Both the position numbers and the translations under genes were made by a program. The notes below the pieces were generated by a model. The model saw only the letters and a list, made by a program, of their open reading frames with translations. It had not been told where the DNA came from and did no database searches. From NCBI GenBank assembly GCA_014526335.1, contig JACTAT010000027.1, positions 1,741,685 to 1,805,684 on the forward strand: a stretch of 64,000 nucleotides of DNA. Direction: 5' to 3'. Shown here one piece after another: positions 26,020 to 64,000 of the stretch. Within the stretch, counting starts at the first letter, position 1; each line of letters opens with the position of its first letter. Origin of the DNA: Chrysaora quinquecirrha (taxonomy: Eukaryota > Cnidaria > Scyphozoa > Semaeostomeae > Pelagiidae).

Positions 26020-26342
26020 TAGCGTATACTAAAATCTGGTTGCAAATTTTTGGATCCAATTGTACCCCATCTATCGTAAACGAAAATAATGAATACAGCT
26101 CATTTACCCTTGAAATATAAGACCATGGCGAAAGATTCTCAAGCAACAGAAAAAGGATTCAATTTTCGCGCCTTTCTGTCCCATCTTGGTACGCATGCGT
26201 GCAGTATCGAACGTGAACTTCGAACTTTCTGCCGCCAAAATTCTCTTTTCTTTTCTTCAAGCAGAAAAGCAGCCACAAAATTTCATTGGAGAAGGGCGCT
26301 GACTTGCATGCAAATTTTGAGAAGAATTACCTATGAATAAGT

Positions 26343-27035
26343 ATGTCTGATTCAAGTAATTTATCTGCAAGTAGCAAATACTTAGTATTATACAATGCCG
26401 TGCTTTTTGCTGGATGGAGTGCTGTGCTTGTCAGCTTGTGCATGGGTGGCCTAGGCACTTCCGCAGCAAGCCAAGACAGCATTTTCGAGAAGACCTATTC
26501 CAAAGCCGAGCTGCTGCTGAAAATCTCACAGACTGCGGCCTTGTTAGAGATTCTACACTGCATTATAAAGTTTGTACCTTCATCCCCAGTTTTAACCGGC
26601 TTCCAAGTCTGCTCAAGATTATTTGTATTGTGGATGGTCACTGACAAAGTTCCCTCCACCCAAAAAAGCCCTGGTGTGTTACTTTACCTTACTTGCTGGA
26701 GCATAACAGAAATCATAAGATATCCATATTATGTATTCAATATTCTTTGGGACGTCCCATATGTCCTGTTGTGGTGCCGATATTCCTTTTTCTTCATTTT
26801 GTACCCGCTTGGTGTCCTTGGAGAGTTGATGACAATTTACAGTGCATTAAACGTTGTCAAGGAACAAGGGATTTTTAGCATCGAGATGCCGAATGCTGTG
26901 AATTTCAGCTTCAGTTACTACTATTTCCTCCTATTTGTGATGCTATGTTACATACCAATATTCCCCCAGCTCTACTGCCACATGATTCGTCAGCGCAGGA
27001 AATTCATTGGTTCAAAGGCAAAGAAAAACAAGTAG
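26343..27035 (+). CDS. HACD: 3-hydroxyacyl-CoA dehydratase (HACD1/2-like), single exon
   Basis: This enzyme removes water from 3-hydroxyacyl-CoA in the third step of very-long-chain fatty acid elongation, in the ER membrane. The 230-residue frame is full length for the family, starting with YLVLYN and AGW near residues 13-25. The conserved core CWSITEIIRYPYY (about 118-130) is followed by RYSFFFILYPLGVLGE (146-161). Tyr154 and Glu161 have the seven-residue spacing of the catalytic pair known in yeast Phs1 and animal HACDs. There are about six hydrophobic segments, and a C-terminal KAKKNK resembles a dilysine-type ER retrieval signal. The whole coding region is uninterrupted, whereas animal HACD genes usually have introns, so this may be a retrocopy that stayed intact. 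It faces the phosphatidyltransferase tail to tail. Confidence 0.93.
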   Translation: MSDSSNLSASSKYLVLYNAVLFAGWSAVLVSLCMGGLGTSAASQDSIFEKTYSKAELLLKISQTAALLEILHCIIKFVPSSPVLTGFQVCSRLFVLWMVTDKVPSTQKSPGVLLYLTCWSITEIIRYPYYVFNILWDVPYVLLWCRYSFFFILYPLGVLGELMTIYSALNVVKEQGIFSIEMPNAVNFSFSYYYFLLFVMLCYIPIFPQLYCHMIRQRRKFIGSKAKKNK

Positions 27036-30874: not shown

Positions 30875-33800
30875 ATGGCGCGTCTTGGATCGCTCCTTCA
30901 GCAAGACTGGCAAGATACTCGAGAGGGAAAAGAATTTACGAGTGGTATTCTCCGAAGAAACCGCAGACGAATGTTTGGTAAGACACAAAAAGCTTTCTCT
31001 TAACAGCAATCTTTCGACTAGAGAAAATAATAAGGATAAATTACCAAGAGAAAATAAGAGAAAGGATGAGCTTTGGTCTTTGGTAAAACTAAAGGAAAGT
31101 TGTGAAAATTGAGGTTGGGTGCAAGCACGGTCAGGCCCCCAGTATTCCTAAGGCCACGTAATGGTAGGGACCCCTAAGCTGTTGAAAATCGTATAAAGCA
31201 CCCAAAAATTAGTCTAGGGGCAAAGTTTTACTATCTCAGAGCTTGTATAATCGATTTTATGAGCGTTCAAATTTCACGATTTTATAAGGGCTTTGACTGT
31301 GTGGGGTAAAAAATTTCACCAAGTTCATTTTTTGCGGTCAAAGCCTTTATGAAATCAGGAACTTTGAATGCTCATAAAATTAAGAACACAATAGCCAGGA
31401 CAGTGAAACTTTGTACCTAAACTACGTTTTGGCTGCTTTATAAGATTTTCATATAAAAAACTCTATATCATTTGATTTCAAAAAAATTTTAATGTGCTCT
31501 GACGTCATGCCGAAGTCAAATCTATATAACAATAGGATAGAACAATAGAAACTGGCTCTTGCACACCTGAGATCTCATTGAAAACTGCCATGCTCTGCAG
31601 ACTGGTAAACTACGCCCCAAAAATGATCTTCAGAAACAAATAAATTGCACTTAATATTTGTTTTTGTGCACTTTTTGCTTATAGTCTTAATCACTAAAAT
31701 TTTGCACTTGAAATTGGCCTTGTGCTCCCAGAGTTCTCTTTCTCGCTCCAAACTTACAGTCGAACCTCGCTATCTCGAACTCGGTTATCTCGAACAACTC
31801 GCTATCTCGAACAGATTCCCATTTCTCCTCGTTTTCCTATAAGGCTAAGTATAGAGATTAAACCCGTTATTTCGAACTCGGTTATCTCGAACTATTCGCT
31901 ATCTCGAACGAAATGATTTTCCCGTGAAAGAAAAAACCTGGTTATCTCGAACAAAACGTCACAAAATTTCAATTGTTAATTATTATAGCAATGAAAATTC
32001 ATTTTTTAAGATTACAGTGAACTTAGGTTGTCCGACAATTATTATCTTGCAAGGGACTTTCAATCATCTGCCATCTCCAAAGTTTACACGCTTGCCATTC
32101 ACCACAGGCACGCAGGAACAAAATTTATCTGCCTTGAGAAAAAAGAAAATTGTCTTTGCAAATCTGCCTGTGTTTCCTTTTGGTAGATGTCCTACAATGT
32201 TGTCGTTTTTCTGTACACAGACTGCATATTGGTCCGCTATGTTGTCACGCTAGCGAATCTATACGCACTACTGTATTGGATACGCACTACTATGGTGGTA
32301 TATTTTGTGTACTGTGGTCGCGTTTTTTGCGTACTGTTGTTGATACGCACTACGGTGGTGGGTTATTATGCTTTATGTGGTGGTGTTTTTTGCGTACTGT
32401 GGTGGATAAGCACTACTGTGGTGGGTTATTATGTTTGATGCTATCGTTGCTAATAGATGAAGAAGTACTCTAAAATATTAAGCAAGCTTCAATAATGTAC
32501 TATTTTAGTTAAATTGGATGTTTAACACAGCTTCTTGAGACAAATGAGGTCTTTTCCTTCGTTTATATTCTACTTTTACACACAGATGACCGCTTTTTGA
32601 TCGAAAAAATTCTTGATCCCGCTATGTCGAACAAATTTTCATTTCCTGTGAGAGTTCGAGATAGCGGGACTCGACTGTATATAGATAGAAAGATAAACCA
32701 GGTTAGCCAAGCAGCTAATCTTCCCCTGGGTCCTCTCTACTAGCTACAAAATGAGAATATGATACAATTTGACGATTCTTAAAAAGAAAGTGTCCTTTAA
32801 GTTTCTAAAAAGCCTTAGTAACATTCTTCATTTTAAAGCAAAATTTAAGTATTTAAATCTGAGGGTCAAGATAGTGGCCATACAGTTTTCTCTTGAAAAT
32901 TCCCAATGACGTTGACTGTCGAATGTCAAATGGAAGCTCGTTCCATATTTTACTTTCGTTTATTGCTACTGACTGATCAGCCTTTTTCAGTTTTGATTTG
33001 GGTACATATACATCATTGTTAGCAGCAAATCAAACCTTTTGTTCATTTCAGCGATGTTAAGATTTCTTGCTGGTGCATATATTAAGAGAAAAACCTAAGG
33101 GGATTAAATTTTTTCGTAAATTCCAGACACAATTCTTCTGATGATAAGCTACACGCTTTTTTTATAAGGAACCTACCTCAAGGCCTAGTTCGTAAAGTTC
33201 CTTATTTTTGGGCCTTTTTTGAGGCAATTGTAGTTCCAGAAGTTCCTTAATAGTTCCTTAATTTTAACTGCACATACAGTGGTCTTAACAATAAAAGAGA
33301 GACGTTTTCATGTGGGCAAAGCTCGAGACTACTCAAAGAAACATTGGATACATGCTTAATGTACAATTTATGTGATTTTCGACTGCAAATGAATGGAACC
33401 CGCTTTATAATTCTTGATTATTTGCATTGATAAAAGTGCTCAACATTCAAAAAGTTCCTTTCCATTAAGTTAATGATTTTCTCTTTAGTACTATAAGTTC
33501 TTTAAATTTTCGGGCCTTCTACATGTAGGTTCCTTATAAAGTGGTTCTTTATTAAAAAGCGTGTATTCCAGTAGCTGTAGTAATTTGTCTGATTATATTG
33601 CTACTAATTGTTATTTCAGAGGTTCCTACTTCTCATACTGAAACTCCTGGGATCCAGATGTCCATCGTTTATTGGCCAGGAAAGGTTTGTGAAGAACAAC
33701 ATATTAATTTTATGAAGGTAGTCTTCTTGGAGAACGGTTACCCCTTTTGACATTTTAGGCTTTGTGAAAACAACATGGGGCATACCAAGAAATTAACACT

Positions 33801-36800
33801 CTGTATTTTTCATCATTCTTCAGCTCATCCAAACGCAACAAATCGTCATGTTCAAGCTGGTTTTTTGGGACGCTGGTGAACAGTGCATGAAGAAATTCGA
33901 TCACATTCTTCCCGTAAGATATTGATTTGATTAATTGTTGGAAAAACTTTAGCATCTTTTCTGTTTACAGATCCATACGTGTGCTCGTAAGTTGTGGTTC
34001 ATGTCAAGCCATAGTCATTCATGGTCAAACTAATTGCTGACTAAAACAACCGTCAAAGCTCATCAGTTCTTTAAAGCCAGGCGGCGCCAACTGTAGGAAC
34101 TAGTTGCTACACCAGTCATGTCGGCCAGTCAGATCAGCAATCGGCAGCTAGCGCTGGCTGTGCGCGATGTTGACATTAGAAAATCAACAACTCAAATGAC
34201 TTTGAACCTAAACCACTTTCTACTTAATTCGATTCCGATCACGAGAGGAAACTCTTTAAATAACTCTGAGTTATTAACTCAATTAACATTCAACCGGTCA
34301 AACAGCCTTATTTCCTTCAATAAGCTCCCGAGGCACCTAATTAGAATTCTGATTGTTCAGATAGCGCTTAAGGGAGGTGCTTATTCCAAGGGGCGGCTAT
34401 TTGATAATCGATACCAAAGGCACTATGCACATACTATATAAATAGTCAGAAACCAACACAGAAACAAAAAATCTGTGTATACCATGCCAGTTATGCTGGC
34501 CTTGGCGAGGAGGGACTGATCTCAATGGTGAAGGCCTGTTGTAACTTTCAAGTAGACCACTGACTTCCTTTTTTTAGTAAGCAATTACTTCTTTTTTTAG
34601 GCATGCCAAGAAGATGCTGATGCCGTAATTTTTGTTTTTAACATGGCAAACAAGTATGAATTTACGCATTATCTTCCGAATATACTACTTTTTCATGAAA
34701 GCTACAACTTTGCCTATTCGATTTTTTTGTGCTTGTGGATAAAGTTATCATCAGATCGAGATTCCGTAGTGTAGCGGTTATCACGTGCGCCTAACACGCG
34801 CAAGGTCCCCGGTTCGAGCCCGGGCGGAATCACTATTCCTATTTTTGTAGAAATTTCAAAGATTGTGACGTCATAAAAATCTTTTTTCAGAATTTTTTAA
34901 TTGACTTTAATTTTATAAAATAACATAAAAAATATTGAAGCGAGGTAGAGCATGAGTTCTTGCTGAGAAAAGGCTATCCAAATTATGATTTTCATATATA
35001 TACACGTTAAGGGCTGAAGTACTACCAGCATTTTTTGCCAAGATGGTAAATTTTTAACCCTACAATGTTTTGAAGTTCAATAACAAATCCTTATACAAGA
35101 AATAATTTTTTCTTTTTGTTTCCGTTTTATAAAGCTCAACTTGGGAAGATTTACCTGCACTTGTGAGTATCAGTTAAAGTTAAATGTTTTCAATATTGTA
35201 TCACAAGCATAGTCGCAATCTACTTTAGAGACTGTAAACTTTCTGACAACTGCTACTTAAGTTGCTAAAGTATAAGCCTTGAAGGTGCTGTGGCGTCGTG
35301 GTGTAATCCAGCTGACCCGTGGTGCCAGAAGCTCAGTGTGGTCAGGGTTCGAGCCCAGCCACGGTAGCGTCACGGCCAGGGTCGAGGTCTCGATTAGTTA
35401 ACCTACTACTGAGATCCTAGCGACTGGCGCTAAAACATCATTTCATCTTCACTAAGGTCGTGGCCAAACTATCAAAAATCTTCGGTAAAACTTCTGAAAT
35501 CATTGCTTGTTCATCAAAATTTTGACCGTTTGGCCACATCACATAATTAACATCTAACAGAAAATGTTATTGAAGTTTTCAAGATTGTTGCCAATTAATT
35601 CTGATTGTCGAACAATGTTTTGTGACGTGGCAAAACCTTCAAACATTGCTTGTAAAGAAAATCTCAAATGTTTGACGAACAATTTTTGATCGTTTGGTCA
35701 CACAGGTAAAATGCTCATGTAATATACTCTGAAATATGAGGTAGAATGAGCTGTGTAATATGACATTTGTGTGTAACTTTTACAACATGTAATATGCCGG
35801 AATGTTGGGCAATACTGGAAATATGCTGTGTAATATTATGCCCTGTGTAACAATACGTAGTGGGTAACAGTGCGTGTAATATGACATGAGTATTGAGCTG
35901 TGTAATATTACACTTTGGAGTAACAGGCTAGTAACTTCACAGTCTGAGTAATATTGCTTGTAAGATCACACCACTTGTAATATGCCATGTAATAATACAG
36001 TACTAGTAATATGATTTGTAACACGGGAGGAAGAGTAATTGCCAAGAAATATTTTGCTGCAAGTAATATTTCTCTTTTTATTTAATTTCCATAAATAATA
36101 AATACATCACAGTAAAGGAGTAAATTATAACAAATATCAAAGTGATCAATATATAAAAAAGGTCAAACTGAGTACCTACTAAAGACAATATTTCTACACA
36201 AAAAGTATCACAAATGAAAATGTCCACTCATGCTTCAGTTTATTGCCATACAAATGGAGCTGTATGCCATCTGTATAATCTTCTGTGATGCAATCTGCTA
36301 AAACAGTTGAGCACCAACAGTCACATATCATCAATTTCAACCTGGAAATAAAGTTAATGAATCTTAAGAACTTGAAATAAGAACCGAGAATAGGCCCAAT
36401 AGATAACTAGAAACACATTGGCAGATTCAAATTATCTAAAGAAATAAAACTTAAAGTTTACAAATATCTTCCTTATTTTACTTACTTTATCTTTTATTAA
36501 TTCCAAATTCTTTTCTTCATTAGACTTGAAATGTCACCAGTCAAATGATTTTTGCAATTTGTTCATGCGTCCATAATCTAAAATGTTATTAGAAAATAAA
36601 TAAATCATCAATAAATCATCAGGATATCCTTGAATAAACTTTGATGAAAACAATAGATAAAATGAATTAAATGTTTTTGAAGAATATAAGAAAATATTTA
36701 CCACTAATTATCATCCTGCAGCATGACAAACAAGTGACTTGATCTTGACTTCACCAAACTTGAAGTCTGACAAATTCTTGAAAATGTTCATGTCTGACAA

Positions 36801-39800
36801 AATTCAATCACCAACAGGCAGGCAGGCAGACAAAAACCAAAACGAATTTCTAACAGAAAGCACCCAGATTTCAAATAAAATAAATCACTATGATTGGTTG
36901 AAATGTGTCCCTTTGTTTTCCTGCTTCTCTCTTCCATTGTCATGCAAAGTGTAAACACAATAATAAAATGTCTTTCTTTGTTCAATCAGTCATTGTCTTA
37001 TTCATGTGCAATATGTAACATGTGTAATATAATAATGAGATGTAATAAGCTCTGTAATAAGACATGTCATATTACAAAAGGAGATTGATAGTGTGTCATG
37101 TTTCACATAATGTTTCATGTCCATGTGTAATATGATGTTAGATTACACAGAGTTATATACAGCGATTTCGTAGTGTAATTTGTTTCTTTGGATGACCATA
37201 TCTAAGCCAATAGCTTACATATTGGACTGGTTTTCAACACATCAGCATTTTTTTACGCTCCTTCAGAAAATTCAACTCCAAATAGTTAATCTGATAACGT
37301 CCCATTAGAGCCTCCATAATTTAAGATAAGATCAAGTAACATCCATGACATATTTGTAGCGTTTCTTTTGAACCTCATTCCTCTCAGACTTGTTTTTGGT
37401 GCAGAACATCAGCAAATTATACTGCTTCAAATACCTCTCACTTTACCCTCTCTCAGCACTGATGAGGGTAAGGCTCTAGAAAAAGTCTCCAACTTTCTCC
37501 CAGACAAAAAAGCGCCTGGCTTCAAACCTTCCTCACTTAACGATAAAAGCAGGCGTGTCTTGAATGTGGCATGAGATTATCTTTTATTTCAACCGACCCT
37601 CCTCCGGTCGATGACGGTGTGACGGTAAATTTTCCCTCTCTCTGGGCTGCATATTTAATAATTACACGTTTAGGGCTGGAATGTACCAGCATTTTTTGCC
37701 AAGATGGTGAATTTTTAACGCTACAAATTAATGAAGTTCAATTAAAAATCCTTATGCGAGAAATAATTTTTTCTTTTTGTTTTCGTTTTATAAAGCTCAA
37801 CATGGGAAGATTTACCTGCACTTGTGAGTATCGGTTAAATTTAAATGTTTCCAATTTTGTTTTGCTGTCGTTAGCATAGTTGCAATCTACTTTAGGGACT
37901 ATAAAATTTGATACTAAGAAAGCGGAGGCAAAAAAACTCAGAATTTGGCACACTTAGGCCTTTCAAACCTATGACTAACAATTTGAAAATAAGCGCATGT
38001 TAAGGTAAATATATAGCATAATATAAGAGCGTGCTATATATTTACCTTAACATGCTCTTATTTTCAAATTGTTAGTCATACGTTTGAAAGGCCTAAGTGT
38101 GCCAAATTCTGAGTTTTTTTGCGATGTCTAATATGATTGACCAACAATGTTTGATTGTTTGGCAAGAGCCTTCCCCTGTTATTATAATTTTCTGTTTTAT
38201 ACTCATAGATAACGAGAAGTAATGTAAATGATGCTGTTCTGAAGATTGCTGTTGGAACAAGATATCCTTTCGTTATAAATTTCTCTTAGAAATTTGTAAC
38301 TGTTGTGACTTAATATTGTCTTAGCTACTGTTAGTAATAGTGGCTAACGGGACGTTGTAAGAAAATCCATTTTGAGGTCCATTTTCTGAAAACAGGTAAA
38401 AAAATGTTGAAATGGAAATGTCGACGATCTGCTGAATATTTCGAATATTGGTTGCGCTATGGTCAATCGAGGAACTAGATTTGACTGCAAAATCGAATCG
38501 CTGTATTTTGCGCCAATTTTTTTTATTTTTTAAATATGAATTTTTTATTTCTATGGCCTTATTTCAACAGTAACTGATTTTCTACCTCGCTTGTTTATTT
38601 TTATGCTCTTACAAGAAATAAAAAGTAAATTTAAAAATTCTGAAAACAGATTTTTATGAAGTCAATGTGCTCTCTGAAAAACAGAAGAGAAAAAATAATG
38701 ATTCCGCCCGGGCTCGAACCGGGGACCTTGCGCGTGTTAGGCGCACGTGATAACCGCTACACTACGGAATCTTGACATTATGACAAATTTTACTAAAATC
38801 ATCAAAAGCCCAAGTCACCAGCAAGTCCACAGAATCTCAGATGCCATAGTTTTGGTGACAGATATCGATTTTCGCAGAAATCACCTCAAAAATTCAGGTC
38901 CACTCCTTCCTCAAACTTTAAATTCAGGTTAAAAATACATCCACTTCTAACCTTCTTCTAAGTTTAAGTACAGGGTAACAGTAGATCTACTTTTAACCTT
39001 CATCTAACTTTCAGTACAGGTTAAAAGTAGATCTACTTTTAACCTTCATGCAACTTTAAGTGAAGGTCAAAAGTAGATCTACTTTTAACCTTCATGTAAC
39101 TTTAAGTGAAGGTCAAAAGTAGATCTACTTTTAACCTTCATGCAACTTTAAGTGAAGGTCAAAAGTAGATCTACTTTTGACCTTCATGTAACTTTAAGTG
39201 AAGGTCAAAAGTAGATCTACTTTTAACCTTCATGCAACTTTAAGTGAAGGTCAAAAGTAGATCTACTTTTGACCTTCATGTAACTTTAAGTGAAGGTCAA
39301 AAGTAGATCTACTTTTAACCTTCATGCAACTTTAAGTGAAGGTCAAAAGTAGATCTACTTTTGACCTTCATGTAACTTTAAGTGAAGGTCAAAAGTAGAT
39401 CTACTTTTAACCTTCATGCAACTTTAAGTGAAGGTCAAAAGTAGATCTACTTTTAACCTTCATGTAACTTTAAGTGAAGGTCAAAAGTAGATCTACTTTT
39501 AATCTTCATGTAACTTTAAGTGAAGGTCAAAAGTAGATCTACTTTTAATCTTCATGTAACTTTAAGTGAAGGTTAAAAGTAGATCTAGGTGTAACTTTAA
39601 ATCCCAATCTTCGCCTTACATTAAAAGTAGGTGAAAGTTTGAAGTAGATCTGCTTTTAACCTTCCCTTATAGTTAAGCGAGAATGTTATATTTTTACCTT
39701 ACCTAGCCCCTCGAGGAAGCATCTGATACATGCGTAAAAAACAATTTCCGATTGTTTGAATGACACGCTAGCGAAGCTATAATCACTACTGTGGTGGTAT

Positions 39801-40809
39801 TTTTGCGTGCTGTGGTGGTAGTTTCTGCGCACTGTGGTGGATAATCACTATTTGTGGTGGGTTACTATGCTTGCGGTGGTAGCATCCACCACAGTAGTGA
39901 TTATAGATTCGCTAGCGTGGAAAGATAAAAATATTCAAAACTGAGAAGACCAGGGGATTTTATCTTTAGTAATTTAAATTTTATGGCCCTCTACATGTAG
40001 GTTATTTGTAAAATGGTTCTTTATAAAAATGCCTGTAGCCTTTACAGCATTCTACATTACTTCACAACGTTAACCAGATTTTGGAAAATTCCTTAACAGT
40101 TTTTACAGATGACCTGAAAGAATCGAAAGGGATATCCAGAAAAGCCATTCGAGATTTTGAAAAAGTTTGGAAAATTCCAATTTTGAAAATAGCTAATGTG
40201 GATGGGGCGGTACTGCCTGATGGAAACTTAGATGGCAGAGCAAGTATCAAGGTAGAATATTTTATTTATTTTGACTCTTTTTCTTAGGAACCGGTGCCGT
40301 TGTGACTCAGGTTTCCGTCTTGTATTTCTGAGGCGGAAATAATGGGGGTTCCAATTTTGGCGGAAATTTTGCGATTTTCCTTTGAAAATAGCACAAAATA
40401 GAACATTTTTCATTGACTGTCAGAAATTTAGGCCTATTGGGGCCCATTGGCTTCACCAGTCGGAGTTTTGAATTACCGTAACTGTTGTATCTACTGGATG
40501 GCTTTCTTGTTCTCCGATGAAATTGTACAATAAAATCCTCTCAAATCTTAGGATATCTCACCGTTTCTAAACCGCTTGGTGGAACTGCTTTGGGCACACG
40601 ATCAAATGTCGACTGGTTTTCCTGGAGTGTCTCGGCCGATACCGAGAGAGATCAGAGAACCCGAGAGGGAAGAAGCAGCCGTCCTACCGGAGAAGGTCCT
40701 GCCCGGGAGCAGAAAGTCCGGTAGCATGAACGGGTCTGATGATGGTGAAGATAGAAAGAGCACACATAGCAGACAGTCTGTTGAGAAGCTTACAATCACG
40801 TATTGCTGA
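30875..40809 (+). CDS. CPLANE2: CPLANE2/RSG1 ciliary small GTPase, multi-exon, P-loop exon not found
   Basis: RSG1 is a Rab-like GTPase working with the CPLANE (Fuzzy-Inturned-Wdpcp) proteins in ciliogenesis and planar polarity. Exons I can join in frame: 30875-30977, 33620-33684, 33824-33913, 34601-34653, 35135-35162 (or its duplicate 37796-37823), 38209-38261, 40107-40251 and 40552-40809, giving about 264 residues. Matches to the family are the N-terminal EGKEFTSGILRRNRRRMFG, the switch I region HTETPGIQ, WDAGEQCMKKFDHIL (G3), ACQEDADAVIFVF, WEDLPAL, VGTRDD (G4) and DGNLDGRASI with LLWAHDQMSTG at the C end. A roughly 40-residue exon carrying the GxxxxGKT P-loop should lie in intron 1 but I cannot see one. 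Intron 6 is AT-AC. The C-terminus has an acidic/Ser-rich extension beyond the human end. Identity is very secure; completeness is not. Confidence 0.9.
31185..31520. mobile_element. Partial copy of the palindromic MITE
   Basis: Closely matches 29140-29460, for example AAAATTAAGAACACAATAGC and TTTCACCAAGTTCATTTTTT. It is in the same orientation and truncated at both ends relative to the copy in the SDR intron. Confidence 0.75.
31757..32677. mobile_element. Non-autonomous pogo/Tigger-like element
   Basis: Terminal inverted repeats CAGTCGAACCTCGCTATCTC and its reverse complement at 32650-32677 are flanked by TA duplications (31755-31756 and 32678-32679). The TATCTCGAAC word is repeated internally near both ends, a habit of Tigger-type elements. 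No transposase frame is present. A minisatellite element is nested at about 32246-32440. Confidence 0.85.
32246..32440. repeat. Minisatellite element with CACGCTAGCGAA end, nested
   Basis: Begins CACGCTAGCGAATCTATACG and continues as repeats of TACGCACTACTGTGGTGG type. It shares terminus and unit with the hairpin at 39764-39919. The matching right terminus is not visible here. Confidence 0.65.
32853..33020 (-). pseudogene. LINE reverse transcriptase C-terminal relic
   Basis: On the minus strand this reads SKLKKADQSVAINESKIWNE followed by LPFDIRQSTSLGIFKRKL and a stop at 32855-32853. This is the typical C-terminal 'WNxLPxxIR...FKxxL' tail of non-LTR reverse transcriptases. Upstream sequence is degenerate. 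It is a different element from the one at 17.3-20.4 kb. Confidence 0.75.
33152..33563. mobile_element. Foldback MITE, AAGGAAC type, copy 2
   Basis: 412 bp, TA-flanked. Ends CACGCTTTTTTTATAAGGAA and its mirror with GCGTG. It sits 56 bp upstream of a CPLANE2 exon. Confidence 0.85.
34760..34832 (+). tRNA. tRNA-Val (AAC)
   Basis: 73 nt. Acceptor stem GATTCCG pairs with CGGAATC, discriminator A. The anticodon loop CTAACAC gives anticodon AAC, closed by TGCGC/GCGCA. The T arm CCCGGTTCGAGCCCGGG is perfect. Internal box A TAGTGTAGCGG and box B GGTTCGAGCC are consensus. No intron. It lies in a CPLANE2 intron, in the same sense. The 3' flank has no clear T run within the first few bases; a TTTTT occurs at about 34844. 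Confidence 0.95.
35005..35250 (+). repeat. Duplicated intron-exon-intron block of CPLANE2, copy 1
   Basis: About 245 bp that recurs in direct orientation at 37660-37905, sharing CCAGCATTTTTTGCCAAGAT and ATAAAGCTCAAC. It encloses the 28-nt exon 35135-35162 with both splice sites. Confidence 0.85.
35285..35365 (+). repeat. tRNA-derived SINE candidate
   Basis: Box A-like TCGTGGTGTAATCCAG and a consensus box B GGTTCGAGCCC about 45 bp apart, in a sequence that cannot fold as a complete tRNA. It is followed by unrelated sequence. This is the usual head of a tRNA-derived SINE. Confidence 0.55.
35450..35705. mobile_element. Foldback element, GGCCAAAC...CAAACATT family
   Basis: Inverted ends GTCGTGGCCAAACTATCAAA and TTTTTGATCGTTTGGTCACA. 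An internal GACCGTTTGGCCAC and GACGTGGCAAAAC suggest two abutting copies. Related sequences lie at 50346-50830, 54444-54540 and 55340-55560. Confidence 0.6.
35710..36020. repeat. Degenerate TGTAATATG repeat tract
   Basis: The word GTAATAT (often TGTGTAATATGAC) recurs more than ten times at irregular 15-40 bp spacing. A second, smaller tract with the same word lies at 37010-37155. Confidence 0.6.
36020..37655. other. CPLANE2 intron sequence, no exon recognised
   Basis: AT-rich. Includes the second TGTAATAT tract at 37010-37155. No extra exon, RNA gene or transposase was found. Confidence 0.4.
37660..37905 (+). repeat. Duplicated intron-exon-intron block of CPLANE2, copy 2
   Basis: Direct copy of 35005-35250. 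Its exon, 37796-37823, keeps the acceptor TATAAAG, the donor CTTGTGAGT and the same ten-residue coding content, differing by one silent change (ACA for ACT). Confidence 0.85.
37928..38122. repeat. 195-bp near-perfect hairpin
   Basis: Arms of about 90 nt pair almost perfectly: GGCACACTTAGGCCTTTCAA near 37949 with TTGAAAGGCCTAAGTGTGCC near 38084, and TGTTAAGGTAAATATATAGC with its mirror at about 38030-38050. The spacer is only about 12 nt. It lies in a CPLANE2 intron, 87 bp before an exon. Confidence 0.9.
38699..38771 (-). tRNA. tRNA-Val (AAC), second identical copy, inverted
   Basis: Base-for-base identical over 73 nt to 34760-34832 but on the opposite strand, within the U12 intron of CPLANE2. 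Its 3' flanking 150 bp is also related to that of the first copy (GACGTCATAAAAATCT versus GACTTCATAAAAATCT, then GCGAGGTAGA), so gene and flank were copied together. Confidence 0.95.
38935..39665. repeat. 46-bp palindromic satellite, about 14 units
   Basis: Each 46-bp unit contains the perfect palindrome AAAAGTAGATCTACTTTT, extended in alternate units to include AGGTC/GACCT, followed by TTCATGTAACTTTAAGTGA. Units in the middle are nearly identical; those at both ends are diverged, as expected for unequal exchange. Confidence 0.9.
39764..39919. mobile_element. 156-bp hairpin element with CACGCTAGCG ends
   Basis: Inverted ends CACGCTAGCGAAGCTATAAT and ATAGATTCGCTAGCGTG enclose TGTGGTGG-type minisatellite units, with TCCACCACAGTAGTGATTAT as the mirrored arm. 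It shares ends and units with 32246-32440. Confidence 0.8.
39955..40035. mobile_element. AAGGAAC-type MITE fragment
   Basis: CTTTAGTA..., GGCCCTCTACATGTAGGTTA and TTCTTTATAAAAATGCCTGTA match the right half of the AAGGAAC-type elements. The left half is missing. Confidence 0.6.
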
Positions 40810-63561: not shown

Positions 63562-64000
63562 NNNNNNNNNNNNNNNNNNNNNNNNNNNNNNNNNNNNNNN
63601 NNNNNNNNNNNNNNNNNNNNNNNNNNNNNNNNNNNNNNNNNNNNNNNNNNNNNNNNNNNNNNNNNNNNNNNNNNNNNNNNNNNNNNNNNNNNNNNNNNNN
63701 NNNNNNNNNNNNNNNNNNNNNNNNNNNNNNNNNNNNNNNNNNNNNNNNNNNNNNNNNNNNNNNNNNNNNNNNNNNNNNNNNNNNNNNNNNNNNNNNNNNN
63801 NNNNNNNNNNNNNNNNNNNNNNNNNNNNNNNNNNNNNNNNNNNNNNNNNNNNNNNNNNNNNNNNNNNNNNNNNNNNNNNNNNNNNNNNNNNNNNNNNNNN
63901 NNNNNNNNNNNNNNNNNNNNNNNNNNNNNNNNNNNNNNNNNNNNNNNNNNNNNNNNNNNNNNNNNNNNNNNNNNNNNNNNNNNNNNNNNNNNNNNNNNNN
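63562..64000. other. Assembly gap (Ns)
   Basis: 439 unknown bases to the end of the window. The receptor gene's coding sequence runs into it, so its 3' end is missing. Confidence 1.

Follow-up and report, generated by a model that had tools for sequence, protein, structure and literature searches.

How is the reading frame of a CPLANE2 (RSG1) gene carried across positions 38262-40106 of this Chrysaora quinquecirrha DNA? The window, by which we mean the whole 64,000-nt stretch analyzed, corresponds to C213:1741685-1805684 of a 328-Mb assembly in 740 contigs. A sequence-only reading had proposed a U12-type AT-AC intron at this point, and a motif search, chance estimates and an enumeration of splice pairs lead to the same answer. 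With a probability of about 0.95, the 1845-nt segment at 38262..40106 (+ strand) is predicted to be a U12-dependent (minor-spliceosome) AT-AC intron of phase 2, located inside TRDD, which we take to be the G4-like motif of CPLANE2. The class assignment follows from the presence of both consensus elements, a C rather than a G at +5, the phase, the enumeration of the alternatives and the ungapped alignment of relatives. That the segment is spliced, and by the minor spliceosome, we infer from the sequence elements, the frame that they rebuild and the matching length of the relatives.

The CPLANE2 gene

All exons of the gene lie on the + strand. Exon 1 begins with an ATG (MARLGSLLQQDW...RRRMF; 30875..30977), ends in phase 1 and is followed by GTAAGA; a match from 30875 to 30985 covered residues 1-37 of the database relative P0001 with 86% identity. 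Alignment with relatives placed further exons at 33620..33684 (EVPTSHTETPGIQMSIVYWPGK), which starts in phase 1, at 33824..33913, which carries the G3-like motif WDAGE, and at 34601..34653 (ACQEDADAVIFVFNMAN-). A 28-nt exon encoding STWEDLPAL was recognized by a direct repeat and the reading frame in two copies, copy a at 35135..35162 and copy b at 37796..37823. The exon 5′ of the putative U12 intron (ITRSNVNDAVLKIAVGTR; 38209..38261) ends in phase 2, and the exon 3′ of it (DDLKESKGISRK...ASIK; 40107..40251) is 79% identical to P0001. The last exon, which includes the stop codon, was placed at 40552..40809 by its match to P0001 and its reading frame. When eight exons were joined, the result was a frame of 264 codons with zero stops, drawn from a gene that spans 9.9 kb.

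Six database relatives (P0001-P0006) matched the joined frame, whose aligned identity to P0001 is 77%. The frame also matched PDB chain 7q3e_D (Ciliogenesis and planar polarity effector 2; E 1.2e-49), presumably a mouse chain, and the amphioxus protein P0004 bears the name RSG1 in its source. Both matches agree with the CPLANE2 identity that the sequence-only reading had assigned. The Pfam family Ras matched weakly, with 23.8 bits against a cut-off of 21.6. Taken together, these comparisons support the window gene as a CPLANE2 ortholog by descent, with a GTPase status that is only putative. P0001 has an uninterrupted frame of 302 amino acids and its source contigs are no longer than 1154 nt; since the window gene spans several times that length, P0001 is probably derived from spliced RNA. 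In P0002, a gene model of a close relative (gene15324-16901_t), the four exons that precede the junction are missing and an extra C-T stands at the entry into the exon that follows it; the junction at 38261/40107 is thus skipped. This gap may have arisen because the AT-AC intron misled the gene finder.

No second, intact CPLANE2 copy was found in the assembly with P0001 and P0002 as queries, and the window locus was the only one recovered. P0001 gave eight matches, six of them exons in the window and two elsewhere (contigs C399 and C152); P0002 gave five, four in the window and one elsewhere (C152). The matches on C399 and C152 were rejected as additional CPLANE2 sequences upon inspection of their alignments, which look Rab-like. 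An HACD-like gene with a single open frame lies near CPLANE2 at 26337-27032, and its best and second matches were gene15322-16899_t (77%) and Seg3552.2 'GoldUCD' (67%), respectively. The numbers of the relative's genes, 15322 for the HACD-like gene and 15324 for CPLANE2, suggest that the gene order is conserved. The final 439 bases of the window (63562-64000) are N.

The P-loop exon and the duplicated 28-nt exon

Neither the window nor the assembly yielded the exon that encodes the P-loop (G1, GKxGVGKT) of CPLANE2. Specifically, the motif GxxxxGK[ST] was absent from both strands of the window, sliding the P-loop exons of P0001 and P0002 along the window produced only weak, scattered scores, and searches of the assembly with these two proteins as queries returned no separate P-loop exon match at E <= 1. 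The exon is present in P0001, P0002 and P0004-P0006, P0003 begins within the P-loop, and the position expected for it in the window is 30978-33619. The chain 7q3e_D aligned with the window gene in two stretches, with no gap at the intron junction; its residues 41-77, which fall between the two stretches and presumably contain the P-loop, are matched by nothing in the window gene. Because the exons that flank the gap are both phase 1, the frame survives the loss of the P-loop exon, and the absence may be a real loss or a loss from the assembly. As for the 28-nt exon, its two copies lie within a 177-nt direct repeat of 91% identity and each is followed by a GTGAGTATC donor. Each mRNA would require one copy, as the frame is broken when both or neither are included.

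One explanation of these features is that the CPLANE2 locus is a decaying copy and the intron an unneeded relic, which would be compatible with the U12 AT-AC class. The P-loop exon missing from the window and, as a separate match, from the assembly is what decay would produce, as is the duplication of the 28-nt exon; however, a decaying copy is hard to reconcile with an assembly in which no other CPLANE2 locus was found, and with remaining exons that are open over all 264 codons and retain 77% identity to P0001. We therefore consider decay unlikely. If the P-loop exon has truly been lost, the product could be a pseudo-GTPase scaffold that still depends on the AT-AC intron, with the two 28-nt exon copies mutually exclusive and the whole under minor-spliceosome control, a scenario that we regard as doubtful. 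Rsg1 is described as binding Fuzzy when GTP-bound (PMC12383261), and a CPLANE2 protein without a P-loop would, if this scenario were true, need another mode of action. Should the P-loop exon really be gone, that would be of greater biological interest than the AT-AC intron.

Sequence elements of the predicted intron

The intron at 38262-40106 begins with ATATCCTTTC and ends with TTCCTTAACAGTTTTTAC. At the donor boundary (...GTTGGAACAAG/ATATCCTTTCGTT), the U12-type 5′ splice site ATATCCTTT occupies 38262..38270 and agrees with the consensus given in PMC6259924 at 9/9 positions; the pattern ATATCCTT(T) thus occurs flush with the exon end, as the sequence-only reading had stated. Its further remark that this exon ends without a GT holds for the boundary itself, where there is none, but not for the body of the exon, which contains GT at 38219, 38224, 38236 and 38251. 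Near the 3′ end, the U12-type branch-site sequence TTCCTTAAC at 40089..40097 fits TTCCTTRAC, the consensus of the same report. Its branch A, at 40096, lies 10 nt from the last intron base, the spacing that had been claimed, and the 3′ splice site AC occupies 40105..40106 (acceptor boundary, AATTCCTTAACAGTTTTTAC/AGATGACCTG). The base at +5 is C, not G.

Joining 38261 to 40107 yields DAVLKIAVGTRDDLKESKGISRK, which places the intron in phase 2 and splits the Arg codon of TRDD. The exons 38209-38261 and 40107-40251 then read ITRSNVNDAVLKIAVGTR-DDLKESKGISRKAIRDFEKVWKIPILK, and the predicted product of the AT-AC splice is GGAACAAG-AGATGACC. The proposal that this join rebuilds the conserved G4 region was confirmed, in that the frame and the residues VLKIAVGTR are intact. 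Five of the six relatives (P0001, P0003, P0004, P0005 and P0006) and 7q3e_D are ungapped across the junction. An equal spacing to the next conserved block had been claimed for human RSG1; it holds for 7q3e_D, which is the comparison chain here and not human RSG1 itself.

The 9-mer ATATCCTTT occurs once in the window when both strands are counted, with 0.58 occurrences expected from dinucleotide shuffles and 1.25 from base composition, and at least one was present in 38 of 100 dinucleotide shuffles. By itself it is unremarkable in the window. TTCCTTRAC followed by 6-12 nt and AC was found twice versus 0.21 expected, one of the two being the acceptor at 40106. For both motifs to fall at one given exon boundary, the probability from base composition is ~7e-10, and it rises to ~2e-5 once 121 donors x 201 acceptors are allowed. 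It is the placement of the motifs, rather than their presence, that exceeds chance.

Several other elements were observed in and around the intron. A tRNA gene search identified a tRNA-Val (AAC) at 38699..38771 (- strand), antisense within the intron, and a second tRNA-Val (AAC) at 34760..34833 (+ strand); the two share 73 identical nt, have diverged flanks and are inverted with respect to one another. A 46-bp tandem repeat (+ strand; 14.7 copies, 94% matches) extends from 38914 to 39587 within the intron, and parts of the array form inverted repeats with one another. Just 5′ of the exon at 38209, a near-perfect hairpin (37928-38122) has 91-nt arms that are 98% complementary and a 13-nt spacer.

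Alternative splice pairs

A scripted enumeration of in-frame, stop-free splice pairs around the junction returned 86 pairs (the 60 closest in length were listed singly), consisting of 41 AT-AG, 20 AT-AC, 19 GT-AG and 6 GC-AG pairs. The length of 66 residues was kept by only three: one AT-AC, one AT-AG and one GC-AG. The earlier assertion that GT-AG alternatives fail was borne out, with 0/19 GT-AG pairs retaining that length. Among the 20 AT-AC pairs, 38262/40106 is the sole one that preserves frame and length, and the conserved residues are preserved as well. It is also the only length-keeping pair of any type with VLKIAVGTR and a donor in the U12 register.

The alternatives of the AT-AG, GC-AG and GT-AG types were rejected after this enumeration, each for the loss of length, VLKIAVGTR or U12 register. 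The best of them is a minor AT-AG intron displaced by 2 nt (38264-40108), which would preserve the frame and the 66-residue length and whose product, VGTRYDL, contains a TRYD similar to the TKYD, TKFD or SKFD of other CPLANE2 proteins. Its donor, however, would be ATCCTTTCGT, which is 2 nt off the U12 register, while the in-register ATATCCTTT sits at 38262, and we judge this placement very improbable. A standard U2-type intron has the 19 GT-AG and 6 GC-AG pairs to draw upon, including GT 38236/AG 40077 (one additional residue) and GC 38233/AG 40077 (equal length), but is virtually dismissed because both of these pairs turn the conserved VLKIAVGTR into ILENSLTVFT and have donors (GTTCTGAAGA and GCTGTTCTGA, respectively) judged poor on inspection, and because it would make the perfect, well-placed U12 signals a coincidence (~2e-5, corrected).

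Minor spliceosome components in the same genome

The CENATAC family (PF14968) gave six matches in two places on contig C324, all above the cut-off of 25.3 bits and the best at 42.7 bits; three of the six contain one internal stop. The two copies, at C324:4044021-4046532 and 4164562-4167089, are ~120 kb apart. On the same contig, two full-length U4atac loci ~154 kb apart (C324:5084020-5084140 and 5237992-5238112) scored 59.4 and 58.6 bits against a cut-off of 53, with 49 of 18809 candidates scored. The paired CENATAC and U4atac copies represent either a segmental duplication or retained haplotypes. The Sm site of U4atac (AATTTTTGG) is intact, and its GTCCTTATC is fully complementary to GATAAGGAC in both U6atac-like loci.

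These two loci, both incomplete, came from a search for the U6atac family (46 of 13269 candidates scored); a DNA search of the assembly returned only the same two, and no intact U6atac was found there. The first, L016 (C213:718193-718324), scored 76.4 bits over the full model and is without the 3′ stem seen in the second, L017 (C380:377431-377521; 63.6 bits), which is missing its 5′ part; an identical 56-nt core is common to both. The 5′-splice-site guide of L016 is GAGCCGAGAG, unlike that of human U6atac, which we take to be GAAAGGAGAG at the same position. A pattern for the U6atac 5′ end, at up to 3 mismatches, matched L016 only, and the reversed-pattern control also gave one match. Neither a family search, in which 43 of 24875 candidates were scored, nor a 28-nt pattern at up to 3 mismatches (0 matches) detected U12 snRNA in the assembly. 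The searches for CENATAC, U4atac, U6atac and U12 matched 0 of 14 control genomes and hence had no positive control. The zf-U11-48K domain was detected in four places in the genome and in one control genome; this domain occurs in other proteins too and is not specific to U11-48K. Rfam gave no matches on the window at the gathering threshold. As judged by sequence similarity, the minor-spliceosome machinery of this genome appears to be supported in part, and a complete set was not recovered. By the mechanism of the minor spliceosome, U11 and U12 would recognize ATATCC and TTCCTTAAC, U11 would then give way to U6atac at the 5′ splice site, and the AT and AC ends would be joined with the aid of the CENATAC-containing tri-snRNP.

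Comparison with known introns

In human cells, CENATAC is reported to promote AT-AN minor introns (PMC8280824). In the 17 animals that have any U12-type introns, the AT-AC kind accounts for 8-47% of them (PMC7367187), with shares of 26% in human, 47% in fly and 8.6% in honeybee (Table 2 of that report), so that the sequence-only reading somewhat overstated the rarity of AT-AC introns within the U12 class. Their conversion to U2-type introns is described as rarer than that of the GT-AG ones (PMC2831892). Among the literature matches listed, a set that excluded supplementary tables, none linked CPLANE2, RSG1 or C1orf89 to minor introns; an entry for a CPLANE2 minor intron may exist in such a table or in a database. 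What the present case contributes is a single AT-AC minor intron, in a gene for ciliogenesis and in an animal lineage that branched early. Introns of this type may defeat gene finders, as P0002 with its four missing exons would illustrate if we have read the cause of that gap correctly. If the intron is common to other animals, CPLANE2 would have to be counted among the ciliary genes that defects of the minor spliceosome can affect.

U2-type AT-AC introns, of which SCN4A intron 21 is the type, share their AT-AC ends with the window intron. They differ from it at +5, where the sodium-channel introns have a G (PMC2831892) and the window intron has a C, together with a perfect U12 branch site. 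A closer likeness is the D1S1 intron of Nav/Cav channels, described as a conserved U12 AT-AC intron in an alignment that includes a hydrozoan jellyfish (PMC6259924). Its donor consensus ATATCCTTT and branch consensus TTCCTTRAC are the same as those of the CPLANE2 intron, whereas its host genes encode channels and the window intron lies in the gene of a small GTPase that belongs to the CPLANE complex of ciliogenesis. The window intron is very likely real, and the kind to which it belongs has long been known: because U12 AT-AC introns have been tabulated in 17 animals and described in a jellyfish sodium channel, the CPLANE2 intron would be a further case of a known kind.
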